From: a virus
DNA: 64,000 nt
Reading direction: 5' to 3' (one strand)
IMG/VR virus record: IMGVR_UViG_3300034102_001739
Span: 1-64,000 of that record
Both the position numbers and the translations under genes were made by a program. Below are positions 4,632 through 63,916 of this stretch, piece after piece. The stretch's first letter is position 1. Each line of letters begins with the position of its first letter. The notes beneath the pieces are model-generated. The model made no database searches and was not told the DNA's origin. It saw only the letters and a list, made by a program, of their open reading frames with translations.

Positions 4632-5399
4632 TTAAAAATCCTCCGACTCTGTTAGTTCTTCCCTCATGTACTCTTTACTTCCATCGGGTCTTGTTAGTTT
4701 AGCCAAAACTTCATCCTTTACGAATGCTACATTTACTAACGTAGGAAGCCCATTTCTGTAATCATGGTAGTTTAAGACAGCCTCCACCATAATAGAAAAT
4801 AACGTAGTTCTATCAAAAGCCTTTAACATATTGTTAGTTTGGTAATACTCTACTTTATTTCTAATGATATACTGCTCCCCTCCTGTGTATAACTCGTACA
4901 GTATTCCGTGTAACTCCGTAAATTTTTGTGGTTGCCAATTTTCTACTCCGTCATCCAATAAATCTTGAAACTCTTTGTGTAGATATTTAGCTCTTGATTT
5001 GGCCAATGTGGATTTGTGTTTACCATACTCCTTTATTTGAGTCATTACTTTTTCCACCGCTTTATCCACTAAAGGGCTTTCTAGCTCGAACGGAAAAAAC
5101 TTTCTGCCTCTTAGTTCACCTACATAAACGGTATCCGAGTCCTCGAAACCGAAGAGGATTAACCCCTCCGATTCCAATTCTTCTAAAGCCTCGTCAAATA
5201 GATTATTTTTTGGACTACTACTAAAATCTCCCCACAAGTCTTTTAGGTGGGATACATCTTTACTATACTTTACATACCTAGAACCGTCTTCCATTTCCTC
5301 TGCCACGGTATCTGACAACAATGTACAATACAATAAATACTTTAGCTGTACTAACCCCAATATGGGCATTTCCTTTCTTAACCTATTTAAGATATTCAT
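4632..5399 (-). CDS. Putative replication initiation or accessory protein
   Basis: This 255-residue protein is not recognised by motif. It is mostly helical, with a winged-helix-like N-terminal stretch (about residues 1-110, containing FDEALEELESEGLILFGF). It sits two bases upstream of the helicase loader, the position often held by phage replisome organisers (O or DnaD-like proteins). The role is inferred from position only. Confidence 0.5.
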   Translation of the reverse strand: MNILNRLRKEMPILGLVQLKYLLYCTLLSDTVAEEMEDGSRYVKYSKDVSHLKDLWGDFSSSPKNNLFDEALEELESEGLILFGFEDSDTVYVGELRGRKFFPFELESPLVDKAVEKVMTQIKEYGKHKSTLAKSRAKYLHKEFQDLLDDGVENWQPQKFTELHGILYELYTGGEQYIIRNKVEYYQTNNMLKAFDRTTLFSIMVEAVLNYHDYRNGLPTLVNVAFVKDEVLAKLTRPDGSKEYMREELTESEDF

Positions 5400-5401
5400 A
5401 A

Positions 5402-5662
5402 TTACTCTGTGATTTCTTTAACTTGAATTTCCAACTCTCCGGTAACTAAATCATCGGCTATCTCTAAAGCCGTTTGTACAGCTCCTTTGTATAAATGTGG
5501 ATTTTCCAATGGTAGAGAAACACCAACGGTTATTTTCGCACTCTCGTAATTCCCCAAATTTTTAGTTAGGGATTTCTCGTAGTAAATATAACCTTTCTCT
5601 GCTAAATCCTTTGGAGCTAATTCCTCTGGACTATCCGACTTCTTCGTCTTTACTGGTGGCAT
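5402..5662 (-). CDS. Small conserved phage protein
   Basis: This 86-residue protein begins MPPVKTKKS, almost the same start as the gene at 5954-6379. Its core reads KNLGNYESAKITVGVSLPLE, a pattern I recall from small phage proteins in replication regions, but I cannot assign a function. The start overlaps the upstream HTH gene by 32 nt. Confidence 0.55.
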   Translation of the reverse strand: MPPVKTKKSDSPEELAPKDLAEKGYIYYEKSLTKNLGNYESAKITVGVSLPLENPHLYKGAVQTALEIADDLVTGELEIQVKEITE

Positions 5663-5951
5663 GATCTACTTCTTTTTTAAATAGTTTATTAATCTCTACA
5701 ATCAAGTTGTCTGAGGGTCTCCTTGCTCCATCGAATTTATTTACTATGGGAACTAACCCCTTAGCCAACCTTATTGGGTAATATCTTACCCCATTGGATA
5801 CTAGTGGTGCTGAGGGAAAGATACCTTTCTTTTCGTAACTTAATATAGAGTCCTTTGATTTACCTACTATTAAGGCAAGACCTGCTATTGTTACAGCCTC
5901 TATTAGTTTACCATTTACGGTAAGTCTAAAGATATGTTTTGCCCTCCTCAT
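5631..5951 (-). CDS. MerR/excisionase-like helix-turn-helix protein
   Basis: This 106-residue protein is a probable DNA-binding protein. Residues 20-70 read as a MerR-type winged helix: LALIVGKSKDSILSYEKKG gives the helix-turn-helix, and FPSAPLVSNGVRYYPI resembles the wing. The C-terminus is acidic. It lies two bases downstream of the 5954 gene and overlaps the next gene, so it belongs to the replication operon. It could be a regulator of that operon or a replication accessory protein. Confidence 0.65.
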   Translation of the reverse strand: MRRAKHIFRLTVNGKLIEAVTIAGLALIVGKSKDSILSYEKKGIFPSAPLVSNGVRYYPIRLAKGLVPIVNKFDGARRPSDNLIVEINKLFKKEVDHATSKDEEVG

Positions 5952-27655: not shown

Positions 27656-27695
27656 TATAAAAAGGCTAAAGCCTGACTTACGCAGTCAAGGCTTT
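27656..27695 (-). terminator. Hairpin terminator spanning the capsid gene stop codon
   Basis: The minus strand has AAAGCCTTGACT paired with AGTCAGGCTTT (one bulged base) around loop GCGTA. The capsid TAA stop lies in the loop region. A second small hairpin (AGGCTTTAGCCT) and five T follow. It would end or weaken transcription after the capsid gene. Confidence 0.7.
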
Positions 27696-28661
27696 AACGA
27701 TATTTTTTTCTTCTATGATACCTGTTCCCCAAATACCATACCATCCTAACGTGTGTTTACGTCCCAACTCTACTACACCGTCATCACGCAATTCTACGTC
27801 TAGGGCTACACCCCATGCGTAAGCATTTTCGCCAAAGAATACTGCCTCATAACCGTTGGTCGCTGAATGGCCTGCACCGTATTGAGTAGTGATTTGACCT
27901 GCTGTTAATTTAGGCATTTGTGTAGATTCGATGAAAATACATCCCTCATACATACCTACTTCACCGATATACAATTGGCGACGACCCATGTAGGTGTTAG
28001 CGTTAATCCACGCTGAATCATCACGTAATTGGCGCAATTGGTGTGGGTGAGCGATACATACATAATAGTCACCGTTAACTCTAGGGGCATTGTTGGTAGC
28101 TAGTACTTCAATAGCATCCTTTACAGTTTTTGTATTGAATACGCTAGTATCATCGAACCCGGTGATTACAGTTTCTCCATTACCGAAAACTACATTAGTA
28201 GTACCCAATACTGTATCTCTAAATTGTTTGTCCAAAGTAGTAGCCATGTTATTAGCCAATAGTTTAGAAGCATCACCTAGAACATCCAATAGAGAGGTAC
28301 GCAATAGGTACTCTGTTACTTGGATTGAGTTAGCTTGCTCTTTAACTGCTACGATTACTTCTGAAGTTGTCATACCCTCTGGGGTTAGAACATCGTCTTC
28401 ATCCAATGATCCACCACCTGTTAAGTTACCGTACTTAACGAATACGATTGACTTACCACGTACCGCTTGTAAATCTCTTTTTACTTTAGCGAATTGTAAG
28501 AAACGTAGTCTAGGCTGTGCTTGGAAAAGAACTTCCCGTGAATAAAAATCACGTACTGCTTGTGGGATAGCTGTGTATCCGCCTGCGTTAGCTACTGCTG
28601 ATGTAGTTTCTCCGAAAGAGAAAGCCATAAACAAAGCTGATAAAATTGATAGAATCAACAT
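27678..28661 (-). CDS. Major capsid protein, N4-gp56 family type
   Basis: This HK97-fold capsid protein (327 residues from the first ATG) carries the family phrases TSEVIVAVKEQANSIQVTEY near residue 105, LLANNMATTLDKQFRDTVL near 140, and YYVCIAHPHQLRQLRDD near 205. The length fits the N4-gp56 group. A second ATG at 28628 (MAFSFGETTS) gives a more typical capsid start, because the first 11 residues are an odd hydrophobic stretch. I think 28628 is as likely as 28661. The gene is preceded by the scaffold gene and followed by a hairpin terminator. Confidence 0.9.
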   Translation of the reverse strand: MLILSILSALFMAFSFGETTSAVANAGGYTAIPQAVRDFYSREVLFQAQPRLRFLQFAKVKRDLQAVRGKSIVFVKYGNLTGGGSLDEDDVLTPEGMTTSEVIVAVKEQANSIQVTEYLLRTSLLDVLGDASKLLANNMATTLDKQFRDTVLGTTNVVFGNGETVITGFDDTSVFNTKTVKDAIEVLATNNAPRVNGDYYVCIAHPHQLRQLRDDSAWINANTYMGRRQLYIGEVGMYEGCIFIESTQMPKLTAGQITTQYGAGHSATNGYEAVFFGENAYAWGVALDVELRDDGVVELGRKHTLGWYGIWGTGIIEEKNIVKALTA

Positions 28662-31215: not shown

Positions 31216-32865
31216 TTAATATGAGTTTCTTTTAGACATACTTACCGCTGATTGTATTCCCTCGTATAACGGATTTTCCAATACTTCTATTTCGTACCCG
31301 GTTTCTTGTTCTTGATTAGCTGCTAAACAACAAAGGGCTAAACTATCCACGTAGTCATCAAAATGTCCCTCCATCTTATGACAAACTAAATAAGGTCCAT
31401 TGAAATACTTTAAACAGTTTTTCATTTGTTCCTCGAACTTAGTAAATTCTGTTGTACCCCTAACTCTACTACTGGCCGGAATTTTTATCCGCTTACAAGT
31501 AATGTCTGATGTTAGATTATACCACATATCCGACTTACTTTGTGCTGTAAAAGTATAGGGTTCTATGTTTACGTATTCTCCACAAGCATAGATTAACCTA
31601 TCTACAACCGCTTTTCCAACACCTGTATAATCCGCAAAAATGGTGGAAACATTGTATTGGGCTATTGCGTCTAGTATCGCATGATGTTGAGTCTCGTAGT
31701 CCAACTCCCCCAAATCTATCCACGTTAGTATCTCCTTAAAAGGTTTATCGAATACGTCCTCTCCTTTGTAAACTCTCGCTATGGTTAAGATAGTACTCGC
31801 AGGACTTTTCGCAATATCCAATCCGGCAACGACATAATCCGAATCTTTCGCCATTTGAAATCCTTTTGAACGATTAAGCAGATTGTTGAACTCTGTATCT
31901 GTAATGAGCATACCACTCTCCAAGTCCCAAGTGAGGGCGTACGCCAATTTAAACGCCTGTGAGTCTTCTCCCCATCTTTCTCTTTTCCTAAGGACATCCG
32001 ATTCGTAGTTTAGGTGAAACCTATTGCCATCCCTGTTGTAGGCTTCCCTACGAGCTCTTATGATATGTTTGTACTCGTATTCAAAATGATTACGTATTCT
32101 TTCATCCGAATTTTTTCTATCTATTGACCTGTTACGTTGAATTTCATCCCAAAAGTGATTTTTTACAGTACCCGTAGTACCTACTTTAAGCATAGTTCCA
32201 GCCGTAGCTGATAACATAGGTTCTATGGATTTGGTTACGATAAAATCGTCCACATCCTGTGCCTCTTCCACTATTACTAAGTCGTATGTCTTAGATTCTA
32301 TTTTAGACTGCTTACTCGCTACCTGTCCTGCCAAATATGACCCATTGGTGAGCGATAATTTCGCTGAACTAGTTAGGTACGATTCTATGTCTGGGTCTGA
32401 CATTATTATCTCCGCATTTGCCGAATTTAACCTAGTCATAGCCCTCGAATATGTGGTACTAACTTGGTCTGACTGGGGAGCGAATAACCCAATTCTGAAA
32501 CCGCTCTCGAACTGTTTTAATTCCGGAATAACTTTTGATAACGCCGGTAGTATTACAGTTAGAGTATCTATGATAAAAGCCATGGTCTCTGATTTACCTG
32601 ACTGCCTAGATAATAGTACTGTTTTTATATCCCCTCTAAAAGTAATTACCGAATGAATAACCGCATAAGCTATATCCACTTGGTACTGATATAAAGATAA
32701 TCCGGTTAACGCCTTACCGAACTCTACGATTTTTTCACACACAAAATGCTCGTCAAAAGTTACCGACTTACCTACTAGTTCATCGGTACTTATGTCTGAC
32801 ATACTTTCTCCAGTAGCCTTAAAGACTACCCCCTCTTCTAAGGGTTTACTTTTTTTCTTTGCCAT
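31216..32865 (-). CDS. Terminase large subunit
   Basis: This 549-residue packaging motor has Walker A SRQSGKSE near residues 86-93 and Walker B YDLVIVEEAQD near 200. The C-terminal nuclease has acidic sites in VAGLDIAKSP (near 348), FADYTG (near 413) and DDYVDSLALCC (near 520). All motifs look intact. The gene start overlaps the end of queD by 20 nt. No small terminase is recognisable; the genes just upstream (33397-35693) include candidates by position. Confidence 0.93.
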   Translation of the reverse strand: MAKKKSKPLEEGVVFKATGESMSDISTDELVGKSVTFDEHFVCEKIVEFGKALTGLSLYQYQVDIAYAVIHSVITFRGDIKTVLLSRQSGKSETMAFIIDTLTVILPALSKVIPELKQFESGFRIGLFAPQSDQVSTTYSRAMTRLNSANAEIIMSDPDIESYLTSSAKLSLTNGSYLAGQVASKQSKIESKTYDLVIVEEAQDVDDFIVTKSIEPMLSATAGTMLKVGTTGTVKNHFWDEIQRNRSIDRKNSDERIRNHFEYEYKHIIRARREAYNRDGNRFHLNYESDVLRKRERWGEDSQAFKLAYALTWDLESGMLITDTEFNNLLNRSKGFQMAKDSDYVVAGLDIAKSPASTILTIARVYKGEDVFDKPFKEILTWIDLGELDYETQHHAILDAIAQYNVSTIFADYTGVGKAVVDRLIYACGEYVNIEPYTFTAQSKSDMWYNLTSDITCKRIKIPASSRVRGTTEFTKFEEQMKNCLKYFNGPYLVCHKMEGHFDDYVDSLALCCLAANQEQETGYEIEVLENPLYEGIQSAVSMSKRNSY

Positions 32866-33391
32866 CTAGCCTACAATCGTAATTCATTTCACCTTTATAC
32901 TTTCTCCATAGGTCAAGACTTCTAGCGAAATCTTCCGTAGCCTCATATCTGGCTTCCTTACAGTCTACCCAACAATTTGGGGTCTCGAATAACCTTATGT
33001 TTACTAATTTTATTCCGTCTAAGTCCTTACGGAAAAAACGGTTAAAGATATAGAATAACTCTGAAGCTATATTTTCAGCAGAGGGATTATAGTCTCCTTT
33101 ATTGTCGAGACCCATAACCCAAAGTTTCCACTTATTTTCCTCTGTAAGATTAATTAAATCTTTGTCCAGAGGATTAAGCATTACTCCATGGTCTAGGAAC
33201 TCGTCTATAAACTCAAAAGCTACCCTCTTTATTTCTTTAAAGTCTATAGCGTATCCGATTGCTGCTAATTCATCATACTCAAAAGTAGTTTCCACCTCGA
33301 ATCTATGCCCGTGTAGATTGAAACACTTTACTTTCTCATTCATTACTCTGTGAGCTGTGTCGAAAGGATGTCTTCTTGTAATTGTACCCAT
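32846..33391 (-). CDS. queD: 6-carboxy-tetrahydropterin synthase (QueD)
   Basis: This 181-residue enzyme converts dihydroneopterin triphosphate to 6-carboxy-tetrahydropterin, the second step to preQ0. The zinc ligands are His14 (DTAHR) and His27/His29 (LHGHR), the catalytic Cys23 lies just before them, and FLDHGVMLNP and PSAENIA match the PTPS/QueD fold. It lies between a KTSC-domain gene and the terminase, far from queC and queE, but shares the pathway with folE. The 20-nt overlap with terminase suggests coupled expression with packaging. Confidence 0.9.
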   Translation of the reverse strand: MGTITRRHPFDTAHRVMNEKVKCFNLHGHRFEVETTFEYDELAAIGYAIDFKEIKRVAFEFIDEFLDHGVMLNPLDKDLINLTEENKWKLWVMGLDNKGDYNPSAENIASELFYIFNRFFRKDLDGIKLVNIRLFETPNCWVDCKEARYEATEDFARSLDLWRKYKGEMNYDCRLDGKEKK

Positions 33392-42620: not shown

Positions 42621-43367
42621 CTATCCGTTTAATCTTTCTGTGGTAAAATACTCCCAAATTCTTTCGTCGATATAGCTTTTCTTACAAACTCCGACTGTAT
42701 TATTCAAATGATTTGATACTTCCTCCGCTATTTCTCTAACCTCTGCATTCAACTCTCTTTTTGTACTGGGGACTTCCCGTTCCATGACCGACTGTAATTT
42801 GTCCCATGCGACCATATTCGCTTTCAGTGTCCTAAAATCCTTTGGTGTAAACTGTTTCCCGACTGTTTTCCCAACAAACTTACTTAGCTGATAATCTGTT
42901 ATCCCAAATAAAGTATCCTCTCCTACTCTGTCCTTAGCCACTTTACGTAACTGCCGACACAACTCCCCATATACTTTAAAACTATTCTCAACTTGTTTTT
43001 TACCCAAAAAATACAAACTTCCACTTCTGCTGGTAAACGAAACGTGTTCCACTTTCAAGGTAGTCAGTCCATAAGTTTGTACGAACATCGGTTCTGCTTT
43101 ACTGTTTGGATGTGGTTTTGTGATATATCCCTCTGCGCTTCCCTCATTCCCAATCCGTATCCCTGTCCACATCATCAATTTCAATCCTAGTGCCAATCTA
43201 GCTTGTTCAGAACAATAATTCCCTCTTACTATGAATCCATCCAACTTTTCATCCAAACTTTCGAACATTCTAGCCAATTTTACAACTCGGTTGAATTTCG
43301 AGGTATTGCTACCTCTACTCTTCCCGAAGAAACCATACTCGGTTCCATTGATAATTACAGTTTCCAT
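42621..43367 (-). CDS. DNA topoisomerase IB, poxvirus/bacterial type
   Basis: This enzyme of about 248 residues relaxes supercoils by a 3'-phosphotyrosine link. All catalytic residues are visible: Arg71 (WTGIRIGNE), the beta-hairpin lysine near 123 (FLGKKQ), Arg178 (PKDFRTLKAN) and Tyr231 (CKKSYIDER). YGLTTLKVEHV at about 99-109 is a family hallmark. It matches the catalytic domain and is shorter than bacterial TopIB because the N-terminal domain is reduced. It may support DNA replication or relieve torsion next to the origin-like region. Confidence 0.9.
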   Translation of the reverse strand: METVIINGTEYGFFGKSRGSNTSKFNRVVKLARMFESLDEKLDGFIVRGNYCSEQARLALGLKLMMWTGIRIGNEGSAEGYITKPHPNSKAEPMFVQTYGLTTLKVEHVSFTSRSGSLYFLGKKQVENSFKVYGELCRQLRKVAKDRVGEDTLFGITDYQLSKFVGKTVGKQFTPKDFRTLKANMVAWDKLQSVMEREVPSTKRELNAEVREIAEEVSNHLNNTVGVCKKSYIDERIWEYFTTERLNG

Positions 43368-51548: not shown

Positions 51549-52208
51549 CTACATTCTTATTAATTGTAGGAACTCGTTTCTCAAACTTCCCTCGAAAAAC
51601 TGTCCTCCTAGTTTTGAGGATACCGTGTCACTATTTACATCCTCTACACCTCTTAACTGTACGCAAGCATGCTTTGCTCTGACTAGAACCGCTACGTTAT
51701 CTGTACCCAATAAATGAGTCAATGCGTAGTAGATTTGTTCGACCATTCTCTCTTGTACTTGGGGTCTTCTAGCGAAAAATTCTACGACACGATTTAGTTT
51801 CGAGAGCCCAATTATTTTTTGGTCCGGAATGTACGCTACAAATGCCTCACCAAAGATTGGGACAAAATGGTGCTCACACATTGAAGCCACCTTAATGTTT
51901 CTCTCCAGTAACACATTGGAGTATCCCATCTTATTTTCTATGGTAGTTATCTTTGGGAAATTGTTGTAATCTAAGCCCCAAAATACTTCTTGTGTAAACA
52001 TTTTTGCCACTCTCCGTGGAGTTCCACTTAACGAATCATCAGTTAGTGGAAGACCTAACGCCATCATAATACCTCTGAAGTGGTTTTCAATCACTGGAGC
52101 ATTAGCCTCTAGGTTTACGGAAGTCTCTGTAACTTCTACTCCCTTTCCTACTAAGACATCTCTAATCTCTCTTCCTAAACTTCCGTCTAGTTTACTTTTA
52201 TCTAACAT
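51549..52208 (-). CDS. folE: GTP cyclohydrolase I (FolE)
   Basis: This 219-residue enzyme makes dihydroneopterin triphosphate from GTP, the entry to both folate and preQ0. Zinc ligands are in SMCEHHFVPIFG (Cys and His) and HACVQLRG (Cys). The phrase GLSKLNRVVEFFARRPQVQERM is the family signature. It uses GTP as the source of the phage deazaguanine. It is separated from the other preQ0 genes by 7-20 kb on either side. Confidence 0.93.
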   Translation of the reverse strand: MLDKSKLDGSLGREIRDVLVGKGVEVTETSVNLEANAPVIENHFRGIMMALGLPLTDDSLSGTPRRVAKMFTQEVFWGLDYNNFPKITTIENKMGYSNVLLERNIKVASMCEHHFVPIFGEAFVAYIPDQKIIGLSKLNRVVEFFARRPQVQERMVEQIYYALTHLLGTDNVAVLVRAKHACVQLRGVEDVNSDTVSSKLGGQFFEGSLRNEFLQLIRM

Positions 52209-59416: not shown

Positions 59417-60124
59417 CTACAAATTTTTTGGAATTGTCATTTCTTTGATGATGTCTTTAGCCTTATCCTGTAACATCATAAACTTATGAGTCTGCATATT
59501 TACATACCCGGTAAATTTTCTTTCTCTTAGAGTTTTTAGAAAATCTACTGTACTAATTTTAGAACCCCAATATAGTCCAAGGGCTATGTTTACTCTCTTA
59601 TTAGGAATACTCTCTATAAGAGTAAAGGCTTCCTCTAAGTCTTCCTCCGAATTTACCACGAATTTTATGAAGTCTTTGTCGTTTAGGATTCCTACGTTTT
59701 TGTTTAGGAAACTTCCTCCCTCTCCAGTACTTGCCAATTTGTAATCTACTACAAAACTGACATTTTCTAAATCCCTATACGGAGAAACGTCCATACTTCC
59801 ATTTGTTTCTACTACGACTTTAAATCCTAAATTGGATAATCTTTGTAGTAACTCCGTAGGTCTAAACATAAGAGGTTCTCCTCCAGTTAGACAAATTACA
59901 TCGTTACCATAGTCTTCCAATTTATCTATGATTTCGTTAAGGGTTAGACTGTCTCCTTGATGTTTTTCTAAAGACTCTGGAGTATCACATAAAGTACCCA
60001 TTGTGTCTAGGTAACATCTTAAATTACACCCGGCTAGCCTTACGAAAGTACAAGCTACTCCTATTCCGTATGTGTTTACCTCTCCCATGAAAGATGGGTA
60101 AATCGTATTTACTTTAAAATCCAT
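59417..60124 (-). CDS. queE: 7-carboxy-7-deazaguanine synthase (QueE), radical SAM
   Basis: This 235-residue enzyme turns 6-carboxy-tetrahydropterin into 7-carboxy-7-deazaguanine. Cys33, Cys37 and Cys46 would hold the 4Fe-4S cluster. The last gap is eight residues (CYLDTMGTLC) rather than the usual two, so the cluster loop is longer. GGEPLM (LTGGEP) binds SAM. The gene overlaps the unknown upstream gene by 11 nt and ends at a terminator. Confidence 0.88.
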   Translation of the reverse strand: MDFKVNTIYPSFMGEVNTYGIGVACTFVRLAGCNLRCYLDTMGTLCDTPESLEKHQGDSLTLNEIIDKLEDYGNDVICLTGGEPLMFRPTELLQRLSNLGFKVVVETNGSMDVSPYRDLENVSFVVDYKLASTGEGGSFLNKNVGILNDKDFIKFVVNSEEDLEEAFTLIESIPNKRVNIALGLYWGSKISTVDFLKTLRERKFTGYVNMQTHKFMMLQDKAKDIIKEMTIPKNL

Positions 60125-60572
60125 TTCTTACTTCTTCTTTAGTTATGTATTTATTGACTATTACTCTCTCCCTAAACTCCGGATAACTCTTAACGAAAAG
60201 GGCTAGGCTTTTTATTAATACCTCCCTCTCTAATGGGTCTTTTGGTTTAAATGCTTTTGTAGGTAGTAACATTCCCTCTAGTGCCGATAGACGTTCTATC
60301 TTACCCATTGCTAGGTATCTTTGGGACAGTAATTTTATTCTACCATAACCGTCTAAACTACATCTTACTACTGAATAATACGTCTGCTTCTTGTAGTAAG
60401 AGGTTAGCTCCGCCATCAATACTGCTGCTAACTCTGGATGTACTTTTCTACACATACTTTTAGTACCCTCGATGTACTCCCTTGTCGCTTTTAAATCCAG
60501 TTCCGATACTACTCCTTTGACTTTGTGTTCTACGTTAGACCCTACTAGGAATCTGTAACTACTTTCTGCCAT
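60114..60572 (-). CDS. Unknown protein in the deazaguanine run, 152 aa
   Basis: This 152-residue protein is not recognised. It is mixed helical and beta, with MCRKVHPELAAVLMAELTS in the centre and basic C-terminal helices (YPEFRERVIVNKYI). It overlaps queE by 11 nt, so it is translated with it. Its position between DpdA-like and QueE genes suggests a partner in base modification, such as a DpdA accessory subunit. Confidence 0.5.
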   Translation of the reverse strand: MAESSYRFLVGSNVEHKVKGVVSELDLKATREYIEGTKSMCRKVHPELAAVLMAELTSYYKKQTYYSVVRCSLDGYGRIKLLSQRYLAMGKIERLSALEGMLLPTKAFKPKDPLEREVLIKSLALFVKSYPEFRERVIVNKYITKEEVRNGF

Positions 60573-60575
60573 TTT

Positions 60576-61271
60576 TTATTCTTTTTTAGGTTTCTTTCTA
60601 GGAGACGCTGAAGCTATAACAACTGCTTCCTCTATTTGTTTTTGGGGCTCTTCTTTAGGGGGTGTTGGGGCAAATAATTTTGCTAGAATACCTCCTCCAC
60701 TTCCTCCTGCTGGTGAAGAAGCATCTATTTTTAAAGAGAAATGTTCTCTCCCCGCATTTACTTTGGACATTACCAAATTACTAAGTCTATCTAGTTCCCC
60801 CGATAGATTAGCATCCGGTACTCCTCCGTCTATTTTCTCGTACACAGACGCTCTTTTTACCCTCTCGTATTGTACCTCTACTAAGAACGTATAAAAATCG
60901 TCAGGTGTTTCAGGTGTCTGCCCTCCCCATTCTATACCACAAACGAACCCTGATTTAAACGAGGGGCATTTGTCGTACATATAACACGAGTCACAATTTA
61001 CGCCTATTCCGACTACTTCCCTCATAGGAATTTTTGGACGTTCTTTGACTATGAGTTGTTCAAAAGTCTCGTCCCAAATATCCATTGGATTTCCTACTAT
61101 CCTAGATAGGTAATACTCCTTACATTCCTCTAGGTCACTGTCTGATTGTTTACAAGTAATACACTCAGGATATTCTCCTGTTATAAAAAACGGACAAAGG
61201 TGTTTCTTTAGAGTAGTACTCTCCTCCGCCATTTTTATAATCTGTATTCTCGACTTAACGCTTTCTTTCAT
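60576..61271 (-). CDS. Unknown Cys-rich protein in the deazaguanine run, 231 aa
   Basis: This 231-residue protein has two Cys groups in the first 120 residues, CPFFITGEYPECITC and NCDSCYMYDKCPSF followed by VCGIEWGG. They could hold iron-sulfur or zinc sites. The C-terminus is Pro/Lys-rich and disordered. It overlaps the DpdA gene by 17 nt. An electron carrier or a modifying enzyme acting on inserted preQ0 would fit the context, but no family match is known to me. Confidence 0.5.
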   Translation of the reverse strand: MKESVKSRIQIIKMAEESTTLKKHLCPFFITGEYPECITCKQSDSDLEECKEYYLSRIVGNPMDIWDETFEQLIVKERPKIPMREVVGIGVNCDSCYMYDKCPSFKSGFVCGIEWGGQTPETPDDFYTFLVEVQYERVKRASVYEKIDGGVPDANLSGELDRLSNLVMSKVNAGREHFSLKIDASSPAGGSGGGILAKLFAPTPPKEEPQKQIEEAVVIASASPRKKPKKE

Positions 61272-62190
61272 ATTTACCTGCCTCTTTATTTGTTAGTAAC
61301 AAATTAGCTATTTTTATGTACTCTTTTCTGAACCCTAACCATGCCAATAAGTTCATTCTATTAACATCGTCTCTGTGATCCTTTTTCGTTACTTTTGAGA
61401 AATCTACTCCAGCCTCCTCGTATTTTATTCTCTGCCCCTTACGCCGAAATTTTTGTTTGGTATCCCAACTCTTGAAATTTTTACCGTCGTAATTAAAAGT
61501 AGTTCCGTATCGTACTCCACTTAACCAAGACGTAGAATCCACGCTAAAAAATGGATACCTCCGTAATATTCTTATCTCTGTCCATGCGAATCCATGTACT
61601 CTTACCTTGTATTTTTTGGCCAGTAGAAAGAATCTGTGGGCGAATTTCTTTTGACTTTGATTTATACCTACGTATTTATACTTTTTACAGTACTCTTCAA
61701 AATGTTCGATACCGTGTGGGTCTATGCTCTCGTCCTCGTGTGCTACATAAACTACGTCAACTATTTTTTCTAGGGGCTCAAAGTATTTTTTATTCCACTT
61801 TCTTACTATCTCCCTACCCACGATTTTATCTAAGTCTAGGTTAGCGACTACGTAGATATACTCACTATGCGCTCTAACCCATGCGACATACTCCTCCAAG
61901 TAGGGAATCCAATACTCTTCTTTGCGCATTTCCTCCACGAATCCTGTCGCCATAAAGGAGAACGCTCCAGAGTCCGTCATAAACAAACCACCCTCCGATT
62001 TTAAAAACGGTAGTACTTCATCATAGTAGGTTAGACCTTTTCTAATGTAGAAGTAAGAAACTAATATCTCCCTAATACCAAACGCTACTAATTGTTTAGT
62101 ATCTCCTACTGACGACGCTGAAAAGAACATTACTCCTTTGTTTTTATTCTTATCGTAGTAACCCTCTTGCTCTTTTAACTTCTTCAACAT
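61255..62190 (-). CDS. dpdA: DpdA-like DNA-guanine transglycosylase
   Basis: This 311-residue protein has the TGT-type barrel signatures. MTDSGAFSF near residues 71-79 supplies the general acid-base Asp73, and ANLDLD near 117 gives an Asp119 at the nucleophile position. VHGFAWTEIRILRRYPF then SVDSTSWLSG (about 198-225) matches phage DpdA and archaeal-like TGT ends. It would swap guanine in DNA for preQ0 or a derivative. The Cys-x-Cys zinc site of bacterial TGT is not visible. The start overlaps queC by 41 nt; a later start at residue 21 (MFFSASS) is possible. Confidence 0.8.
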   Translation of the reverse strand: MLKKLKEQEGYYDKNKNKGVMFFSASSVGDTKQLVAFGIREILVSYFYIRKGLTYYDEVLPFLKSEGGLFMTDSGAFSFMATGFVEEMRKEEYWIPYLEEYVAWVRAHSEYIYVVANLDLDKIVGREIVRKWNKKYFEPLEKIVDVVYVAHEDESIDPHGIEHFEEYCKKYKYVGINQSQKKFAHRFFLLAKKYKVRVHGFAWTEIRILRRYPFFSVDSTSWLSGVRYGTTFNYDGKNFKSWDTKQKFRRKGQRIKYEEAGVDFSKVTKKDHRDDVNRMNLLAWLGFRKEYIKIANLLLTNKEAGKYERKR

Positions 62191-62875
62191 ACTTTACTGG
62201 TAATTTTCCACCGTATTTAATTCTCTCTAAAACCTCTTTTTGTAACGACTGGATACTTTTACTTGTTATCCGTTCCTCGAATAATTCGGGGTCAAATATG
62301 TTATTATTAACTAGTGCTACGGCTTTATTTAAACAAGGACGACATTTTCCGCATCCTTTGTGACTTTTTGAATCGTAGCAAGAACGTATCTGTTGTACCT
62401 TAGGGATAGGCATTCCTCTCTCAATTACTTCTTTTACCATTTCCGATTTTGTCAAGTCTCTGAAAGGTACTAGAAAGCTAAAGTTTTTACTCTCCCAACC
62501 CATGTCTGCCTCACAGTTACTATTTAGATGCCTAAACAACGTCATTGTCCGTTTAATAAACGTATCGTCCTTATCAGGAGCATCATCAGAGGCGTTTAGT
62601 CCTAAATATACGTGTTGCCCATACTGCATAGCTATAGTTAACAGTAGTAAATTTCTATAAGGTAGATATTTACTTTCTCTCTCATACTCACCTATTGGTA
62701 ACTCTTTTATGAGTAACCTGTCTTGGTAGTGTTTAGGTAAAGTCTTTAGGAAAGCTATCTCTACTTCTGAGTAAGATGTCTTCATATCTACGTATAGTAA
62801 AACGTCAGGACTTATTAGAAATTCTTGTAGTGTGGAGTCAAATCCTCCAGAAAATAATAATACTTTTTTCTCCAT
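62150..62875 (-). CDS. queC: 7-cyano-7-deazaguanine synthase (QueC)
   Basis: This 241-residue enzyme makes preQ0 from 7-carboxy-7-deazaguanine with ATP and ammonia. SGGFDS (residues 9-14) is the PP-loop. Cys166, Cys175, Cys178 and Cys181 form the C-terminal zinc site (HKGCGKCRPC). YLPYRNLLLL is also family-typical. It begins the run to queE. A palindromic terminator lies 18 nt upstream, so the run may rely on read-through or on a promoter I cannot identify. Confidence 0.92.
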   Translation of the reverse strand: MEKKVLLFSGGFDSTLQEFLISPDVLLYVDMKTSYSEVEIAFLKTLPKHYQDRLLIKELPIGEYERESKYLPYRNLLLLTIAMQYGQHVYLGLNASDDAPDKDDTFIKRTMTLFRHLNSNCEADMGWESKNFSFLVPFRDLTKSEMVKEVIERGMPIPKVQQIRSCYDSKSHKGCGKCRPCLNKAVALVNNNIFDPELFEERITSKSIQSLQKEVLERIKYGGKLPVKYVEEVKRARGLLR

Positions 62876-62942: not shown

Positions 62943-63053
62943 TTACGATTTAGAGCCTGTCTTTGGTGTTGCGGCTGCTGGAGCAGTAGCTTTTCCACCT
63001 TTTCCACCTTTTCCAGTAGCTACGGCTGCTGTTTCTTTTTTACCTTTTGGCAT
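62943..63053 (-). CDS. Tiny Lys/Gly/Ala-rich protein, 36 aa
   Basis: ATG at 63053 and TAA at 62943-62945 give MPKGKKETAAVATGKGG and a second GKGGKATAPAAA-type stretch. It has its own strong promoter (63126-63157) and its own terminator, so it is a one-gene transcript. The composition resembles basic tails that bind DNA or ribosomes. The function is unknown. Confidence 0.65.
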   Translation of the reverse strand: MPKGKKETAAVATGKGGKGGKATAPAAATPKTGSKS

Positions 63054-63125
63054 GGTCTTAAAGTATTAAAAATTTTTAGGCAGTATTATTTTATAATCGA
63101 TTAGCCTTTATAACCGAAAGCGAAA

Positions 63126-63157
63126 CAAAGATAACGTGTCCGTATCTTATTTGCAAA
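63126..63157 (-). promoter_or_regulatory. Promoter for the tiny basic gene
   Basis: The minus strand has TTTG, a 20-bp gap from TTG and TATCTTTG, a perfect match. RNA would start near 63118 with a leader of about 65 nt. There is no other feature in 63054-63173. Confidence 0.85.
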
Positions 63158-63173
63158 TTTTTCAGCTTCTTTT

Positions 63174-63455
63174 TTACGTAGAAAGTAAAAGAATTTTTAA
63201 TTCTATTGCCGTCATTTCCCCATCTGCCTCTTGGAATGAGGGGTTTAGTAGTACATGAGTACCCTTTCGAGAGAAAAATTTGTTACTAATAATTGACGCT
63301 TTTACGGCTTGGTTAAGTGCCCCTGCGCCAATTACTCTAAGAATAACCACTTTATTTGGGTTATCTTGAAAGGCTGAGTTGATACTTCCTGCTAATTTGT
63401 TAGCGTCTGTCGATGACTTACATCTTAATACGATTGGATTGTTTCCGGTTTCCAT
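63174..63455 (-). CDS. SpoVS-like protein
   Basis: This 93-residue protein matches the SpoVS family plan: KSSTDANKLAGSINSAF, then VVILRVIGAGALNQAVKAS and LNPSFQEADGEMTAIELK. The GAGA-x-NQAVKA phrase is characteristic. SpoVS proteins are small Alba-like nucleic-acid-binding proteins of sporulating bacteria and some others; a phage copy may bind phage DNA or RNA. Confidence 0.8.
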   Translation of the reverse strand: METGNNPIVLRCKSSTDANKLAGSINSAFQDNPNKVVILRVIGAGALNQAVKASIISNKFFSRKGTHVLLNPSFQEADGEMTAIELKILLLST

Positions 63456-63489
63456 TGTAGATACTTTTTAATTTTTGCCCCTTATTCCG

Positions 63490-63508: not shown

Positions 63509-63916
63509 TTATAACTCCTCGTATTCTCTTTTTATTTTTACTAATTTCTCCAAATCTTCGGGTCTTACTACAATTAAATACCCTTTTTCGCCTTTTTGTT
63601 TTATAGCTACTACGGGAATTTTTTTCTCCTGCCTAGCCTTATCCTCCGTGTCCTTGAATAAAGACCACAGAGAAAATTTATTTCTAACCTTACACTCGAT
63701 GTAAATTTTTGGGTGTAGTGAGTCACTATTAGTAGAGTGCCCACTATTACTACCTGATAAGGGTACTCGTCTAGTCCCAAAAAATTTGGCTACTACTCTC
63801 TCGAAACCTTTCCAACAATTTTTAGAGGTAGGATTTTTCACTACCACGTTATTCTTACGAATTTGTTCTCTGGTTACTTTTACCCTTTTTAGTACTTTCC
63901 CTGTTCTAATTGGCAT
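63509..63916 (-). CDS. PD-(D/E)XK-type nuclease (resolvase-like)
   Basis: This 135-residue protein has a plan like small phage PD-(D/E)XK enzymes: FERVVAKFFGTRRVPLSG, then SDSLHPKIYIECKVRNKF with Asp, Glu and Lys of the active site, and IPVVAIKQKGEKGYLIVV. It is likely an endonuclease or Holliday junction resolvase used in recombination or packaging. The start overlaps the upstream stop. Confidence 0.7.
   Translation of the reverse strand: MPIRTGKVLKRVKVTREQIRKNNVVVKNPTSKNCWKGFERVVAKFFGTRRVPLSGSNSGHSTNSDSLHPKIYIECKVRNKFSLWSLFKDTEDKARQEKKIPVVAIKQKGEKGYLIVVRPEDLEKLVKIKREYEEL

Follow-up and report, generated by a model that had tools for sequence, protein, structure and literature searches.

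The locus described here encodes two proteins, of 152 and 231 residues, between queE and dpdA, and the question that it raises is what these proteins are and whether they act on the same base as their neighbors. The window (the whole stretch of DNA that was analyzed, 64,000 nucleotides in length) takes up all but a small part of a virus record of 64,740 bases, and we assign it to a tailed phage because it contains genes for a large terminase subunit (TerL; 31216–32865, minus strand) and a capsid protein (27678–28661). Hutinet et al. (2019, PMC6884629) showed that preQ0 is inserted in DNA by phage DpdA, and they described several groups of the enzyme. We found no mention of a split DpdA, of its C-terminal domain or of zinc in the text of that paper, and in the literature that we covered we found no explanation for how DpdA is targeted to phage DNA or for the role of its long C-terminal extension.

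The cassette and its route to preQ0

The cassette is transcribed on the minus strand in the order queC (62150–62875, 241 residues), dpdA (61255–62190, 311 residues), the 231-residue ORF (60576–61271), the 152-residue ORF (60114–60572) and queE (59417–60124, 235 residues). The preliminary description had placed two genes between queE and dpdA with overlapping frames at three of the four junctions, and both the coordinates and the homologs of the two ORFs, which occupy the same position in other phages, agree with it: queC and dpdA overlap by 41 nt, dpdA and the 231-residue ORF by 17 nt, and the 152-residue ORF and queE by 11 nt, while a 3-nt gap at the remaining junction separates the 231- and 152-residue ORFs. 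The reading frames of the cassette are not products of chance, since across the whole window the plus strand contains no ATG-initiated ORF of at least 150 residues and the minus strand contains 45. An Rfam search of the cassette returned no RNA.

QueC (Pfam QueC, 1.2e-17; phrog_1550, 3.8e-23) and QueE (Radical_SAM, 8.6e-8; phrog_2076, QueE-like, 1.6e-28) were identified by both Pfam and PHROGs, and DpdA by PHROGs. Outside the cassette, the same record encodes QueD (32846–33391, minus strand, 181 residues; PTPS, 1.3e-28) and FolE (51549–52208, minus strand, 219 residues; GTP_cyclohydroI, 7.8e-58), which completes a route from GTP to preQ0 through FolE, QueD, QueE and QueC. The queD gene shares about 20 nt with the beginning of the gene for the large terminase subunit. 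Upstream of queC lies a gene for a small SpoVS/Alba-like protein (63174–63455, minus strand; 1.3e-13) that adjoins a PDDEXK/Holliday-junction-resolvase-like gene (63509–63916), and both of these neighbors recur at three of the related loci discussed below (L001, L002 and L032). A separate region of the window (42621–43367, minus strand) matches the catalytic core of eukaryotic-type topoisomerase I (2.5e-18), here in a phage.

The dpdA gene of the window encodes only the catalytic (TGT) half of the enzyme. Its product covers positions 5–280 of phrog_887 (2.5e-39), a 509-position family annotated as ‘queuine tRNA-ribosyltransferase’, and these positions correspond to the TGT-like catalytic domain. 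When aligned with 10 other DpdAs, it retains the aspartate of the DSG motif (Asp 73) and the histidine of the HG motif (His 199). DpdA2 proteins (Vibrio phage nt-1 type) are described as lacking the histidine found at position 196 of the 9g DpdA (PMC6884629); here the HG histidine of the window protein was compared with that of the NP1 and EC151 DpdAs, with which it aligns. A search of PDB sequences with the window DpdA gave nothing of note.

The 231-residue protein and the split form of DpdA

The preliminary description knew of no such family. For the 231-residue protein this was mistaken, since it too is a member of phrog_887, matching positions 364–475 (1.4e-13). An independent profile, constructed from 15 fused (single-ORF) DpdAs with all split members excluded, matched the window DpdA at positions 31–282 (3.3e-41) and the 231-residue protein at positions 362–488 (1.5e-25), and among all of the ORFs in the window it found only these two. 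The other split pairs described below show the same complementary coverage of this profile. The complementary matches indicate that the 231-residue protein represents a detached part of DpdA; judged by sequence comparison, it is the DpdA C-terminal domain plus an added N-terminal part, encoded by a separate gene that immediately follows the one for the catalytic half.

Residues ∼77–206 make up the C-terminal domain that is conserved in long DpdAs, residues 1–76 form an N-terminal extension of the split clade, and the tail after residue ∼206 contains the short conserved sequence GGGILAKLF and is basic at its end. The two groups of cysteines pointed out earlier in this protein are both real. The second (C93, C96, C102 and C111; 60939–60995, minus strand), located in the conserved domain, has the spacing C-x2-C-x5-CP-x7-C, and all four of its cysteines are invariant in 23 aligned DpdA domains from split and fused forms, as they are in terminase small subunits of Gordonia/Tsukamurella phages. 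Downstream of this cluster are a helix in which R137 and E145 are invariant, a GG..D..LS.E.DRL motif and, after a loose linker, a hydrophobic tail motif (phi-phi-x-x-[LI]-F) that is conserved and has a nearly invariant F200. The first cluster (C26-x10-C37-x2-C40-x9-C50; 61122–61196, minus strand) lies in the N-terminal extension and is limited to the split clade. The extension showed no relation to the linkers of fused proteins in an hhalign comparison (probability 0.1); 13 of the 15 fused linkers are devoid of cysteine, and the other two (L038 and L039) contain three each, which do not fit the pattern of the first cluster. Both of these fused forms adjoin preQ0 genes, yet lack that cluster. 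At L038, an NADPH-dependent FMN reductase-like gene (5372–5929; 2.8e-21), itself preceded by a FolE-like gene, lies directly upstream of the fused dpdA.

Neither Pfam nor NCBIfam offered a model for the 231- or the 152-residue protein, and scans of viral contigs with either single sequence returned nothing, although alignment-based scans did find relatives. A PDB sequence search with the 231-residue protein gave nothing of note, and its AlphaFold model (mean pLDDT 50.6) is too poor to assign a fold or a surface for binding DNA, or to serve as a query in structure searches. Its assignment as a terminase small subunit was considered and rejected, because the match covers only 24 of the 469 profile positions of the small subunit family phrog_6902 and because the gene is located far from terL.

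Scanning IMG/VR with patterns for the cysteine domain alone, without requiring a DpdA, identified 15 loci, all of which encode DpdA (14 as a single fused ORF and one in split form, with dpdA just upstream). The split loci L037 and L041/L044, as well as the fused forms L038 and L039 (about 680 residues), came from further scans that used alignments of DpdA, QueC and QueE, and a scan of genome contigs yielded one locus, in Terracoccus. The Streptomyces phages GiJojo, BRock, LuckySocke, Alone3 and pSt2308 each carry both parts of DpdA in one ORF of ∼500 residues. A search for QueC and QueD in 13 records of an actinophage-type fused clade found neither protein in any of them, which argues that the C-terminal domain goes with DpdA and not with the genes for preQ0 synthesis. 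In the actinophage-type fused DpdAs (L003, L005–L008, L022 and L027–L029) the aspartate of the SVDS motif, kept in all other DpdAs compared, is replaced by A, S or L, and these proteins may differ in their chemistry or be inactive. Many DpdAs (those of Queuovirinae-type and Mycobacterium phages, and that of L011) act or are maintained without the C-terminal domain, indicating that it is not required for base exchange as such.

Six loci display the split form: that of the window and five gut-phage-like ones (L001, L002, L032, L037 and L041). In the DpdA tree their DpdAs group together as a single clade with a support of 98/100, consistent with a split that arose, or became fixed, once. The fused state needs two changes on this tree, and the two forms may be related either by fission of a fused ancestor or by fusion of separate genes. 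In two of the split loci the dpdA gene is extended to about 730 residues by an intein-like insert of ∼420 residues (L002, 3794–5992; L032, 4819–7017), which interrupts the conserved SxDS(T/S)W sequence at the same site in both and ends with HN before a Thr.

We refer to the pair in the window as a split variant because the two domains lie on overlapping ORFs in different frames rather than on one polypeptide. The same 17-nt overlap and change of frame could be taken as a sign that programmed frameshifting joins the two ORFs and that the split is only apparent, an idea to which we give almost no credence: each half has its own start, the halves are 49 nt apart in L001 and 2 nt apart in L002, and in L037 two complete genes intervene between dpdA and the domain gene, which marks the latter as encoding a separate protein instead of a frameshift product. 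Two separate proteins would be the simplest reading of the split dpdA. As to what the detached protein does, the preliminary description had suggested either a targeting subunit, which comes close to the detached DpdA domain that we find, or an iron-sulfur enzyme that would modify preQ0 once it has been inserted into the DNA. The latter suggestion, for which the two Cys4 groups of the split form and the position of the gene within the que/dpdA cassette might speak, is unsupported and in our judgment very unlikely. The conserved part of the protein is a DpdA domain, the first cysteine cluster is missing from fused proteins, the protein has neither the radical-SAM CxxxCxxC spacing nor a Pfam match, the 13 actinophage-type records that lack QueC and QueD carry the domain nonetheless, and the Cys4 module recurs in terminase small subunits (see below).

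A paper published in NAR in 2023 reportedly describes further DpdA subfamilies and the 7-deazaguanine tailoring enzymes DpdL, DpdM and DpdN. The long or split form of DpdA could already be mentioned there, and any claim of novelty on our part is limited accordingly.

The 152-residue protein

Homologs of the 152-residue protein (25–31% identity) are encoded directly upstream of queE in L001, L002, L032 and L041/L044, and one homologous gene occupies 62998–63474 of the record of phage BS162P1 (OP172706), whose host is a Bacteroides. All of the finds of this protein were at split-dpdA loci belonging to a single gut-phage lineage with a common gene order; it is missing from L037, the more distant split locus, and searches of plasmids and of nine other records of DpdA or TerS phages did not find it. 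The protein has a basic pI of 9.5 and is classed as all-helical, with a mostly helical model of moderate quality (pLDDT 69, pTM 0.70). Comparison with PHROGs, Pfam and NCBIfam gave nothing beyond one chance-level match, and a PDB sequence search with its profile gave nothing of note. Against PDB structures, the model reached a best Foldseek E of 1.5 and a best VIA Z of 5.9, the latter within the background for helical proteins; NusB-like matches at E 1.5–6 were rejected as chance. The sole good structural match was to a viral protein, A0A8S5VVF7 (E 5e-4). Fourteen residues are invariant among six sequences (L9, V10, G11, E15, I34, E55, Y65, R70, R78, L87, R94, L102, R116 and E147). Cys, His and Asp are absent from this set, and an enzyme that depends on a metal or a nucleophile is accordingly improbable.

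The position of this gene says less about its function than does that of the 231-residue ORF, because the cargo of the neighboring slot varies. Beside the DpdA-domain gene are found a very basic protein of ∼105 residues in L001 (6753–7073), L002 and L041, an N6/N4 DNA methylase in L032 (7662–8399) and a 2OG-Fe(II) oxygenase in L037 (7231–7833). Such differing cargo, the fast evolution of the 152-residue protein relative to QueC and QueE (47–68% identity) and its absence from L037 would all suit a moron in a variable cassette slot, unrelated to base modification and perhaps serving in counter-defence. We regard this as a real possibility at somewhat less than even odds, given that the gene is kept directly before queE in all of the split loci except L037 (n = 5). 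Its position and its lack of conserved catalytic residues most likely reflect, in a reading that we draw only weakly, not an enzyme but a small basic helical accessory that the cassette has in one lineage of gut phages. The earlier suggestion that the two intervening genes act on one and the same base is well supported for the 231-residue protein, and the support is limited to that protein.

A module shared with terminase small subunits and the proposed role of the domain

A profile of the DpdA domain matches the terminase small subunits (TerS) of phages TIN2, GTE7 and Woes at E-values of 2e-9 to 9e-8, as compared with a best E-value of 0.68 among 600 shuffled controls. The shared Cys4 module is located near the C-terminus of these small subunits of Gordonia/Tsukamurella phages, the genes for which lie directly upstream of an annotated large terminase in TIN2, GTE7 and Woes. 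No TGT domain was found in these phages, and the DpdA family matches there only through the module. The preliminary description had considered whether the two genes might be widespread in phages without any queuosine-type genes; we did not find this, and only the Cys module occurs by itself, in the TerS phages. Because two phage-DNA proteins of different chemistry share it, the module argues for placement on DNA or on a partner and against catalysis, and its presence in TerS favors a docking (targeting) role for the DpdA domain.

Based on these sequence relationships we propose, with a probability of about three in four, that the C-terminal domain of DpdA is encoded here as its own gene, yielding a two-subunit enzyme, and that this domain, with its predicted Cys4 metal site, serves to position the enzyme, either on phage DNA itself or on a partner, and performs no base chemistry. 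The catalytic half and the 231-residue protein would act together, the latter bringing the former to phage DNA, or to a partner found on that DNA, where guanine would be exchanged for preQ0 supplied by the phage's own FolE, QueD, QueE and QueC. The Cys4 pattern suggests that the site binds a metal, most likely a structural zinc.

The similarity to TerS could reflect a common role in docking to proteins rather than in binding DNA. The domain might then be a docking module for a putative partner such as terminase, portal or sliding clamp, and would tie base exchange to DNA packaging or to replication. The sharing of the module with terminase small subunits, the conservation of the hydrophobic tail motif and its phenylalanine, and the location of the NP1 and EC151 dpdA genes, which adjoin or lie close to a gene annotated as a DNA polymerase processivity factor, are consistent with this idea, but the sequence of the tail motif does not include the Gln that is typical of clamp-binding peptides, and the cassette is distant from terL; we consider it an unlikely, if reasonable, alternative to a domain that contacts DNA itself. 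A broader and more doubtful conjecture is that the Cys4 module serves phages in general as a unit for docking to their DNA, such that base exchange and packaging share a recognition step that spares host DNA; in this lineage of gut phages the module would have become a separate targeting subunit, with the 152-residue protein as a third component.

If the domain does direct DpdA to phage DNA, as we propose, then the module shared with TerS offers a concrete lead on how a base-exchange enzyme is recruited there. The natural split also allows the extension to be deleted, restored or swapped while leaving the active site untouched.

The arrangement in the window can be compared with three known systems. 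The long single-ORF DpdAs (such as BRock gp36 and GiJojo gp181) likewise combine a TGT half with a Cys4 domain of the same spacing, the helix and the GG..D..LS.E.DRL motif, whereas the form described here consists of two genes and its detached half has an additional N-terminal Cys4 cluster. The short DpdAs of Queuovirinae-type and Mycobacterium phages (NP1, EC151, CRB2 and Bipper) resemble the window protein in their catalytic half, their DSG and HG motifs and the presence of que genes nearby, but have no Cys4 C-terminal domain in cis, nor in trans within the stretch examined. The terminase small subunits (phrog_6902; GTE7, Woes and TIN2) have in common with the 231-residue protein the C-terminal Cys4 module and the helix that follows it, and differ in that the rest of the protein is unrelated, the gene adjoins terL and no TGT domain accompanies it.
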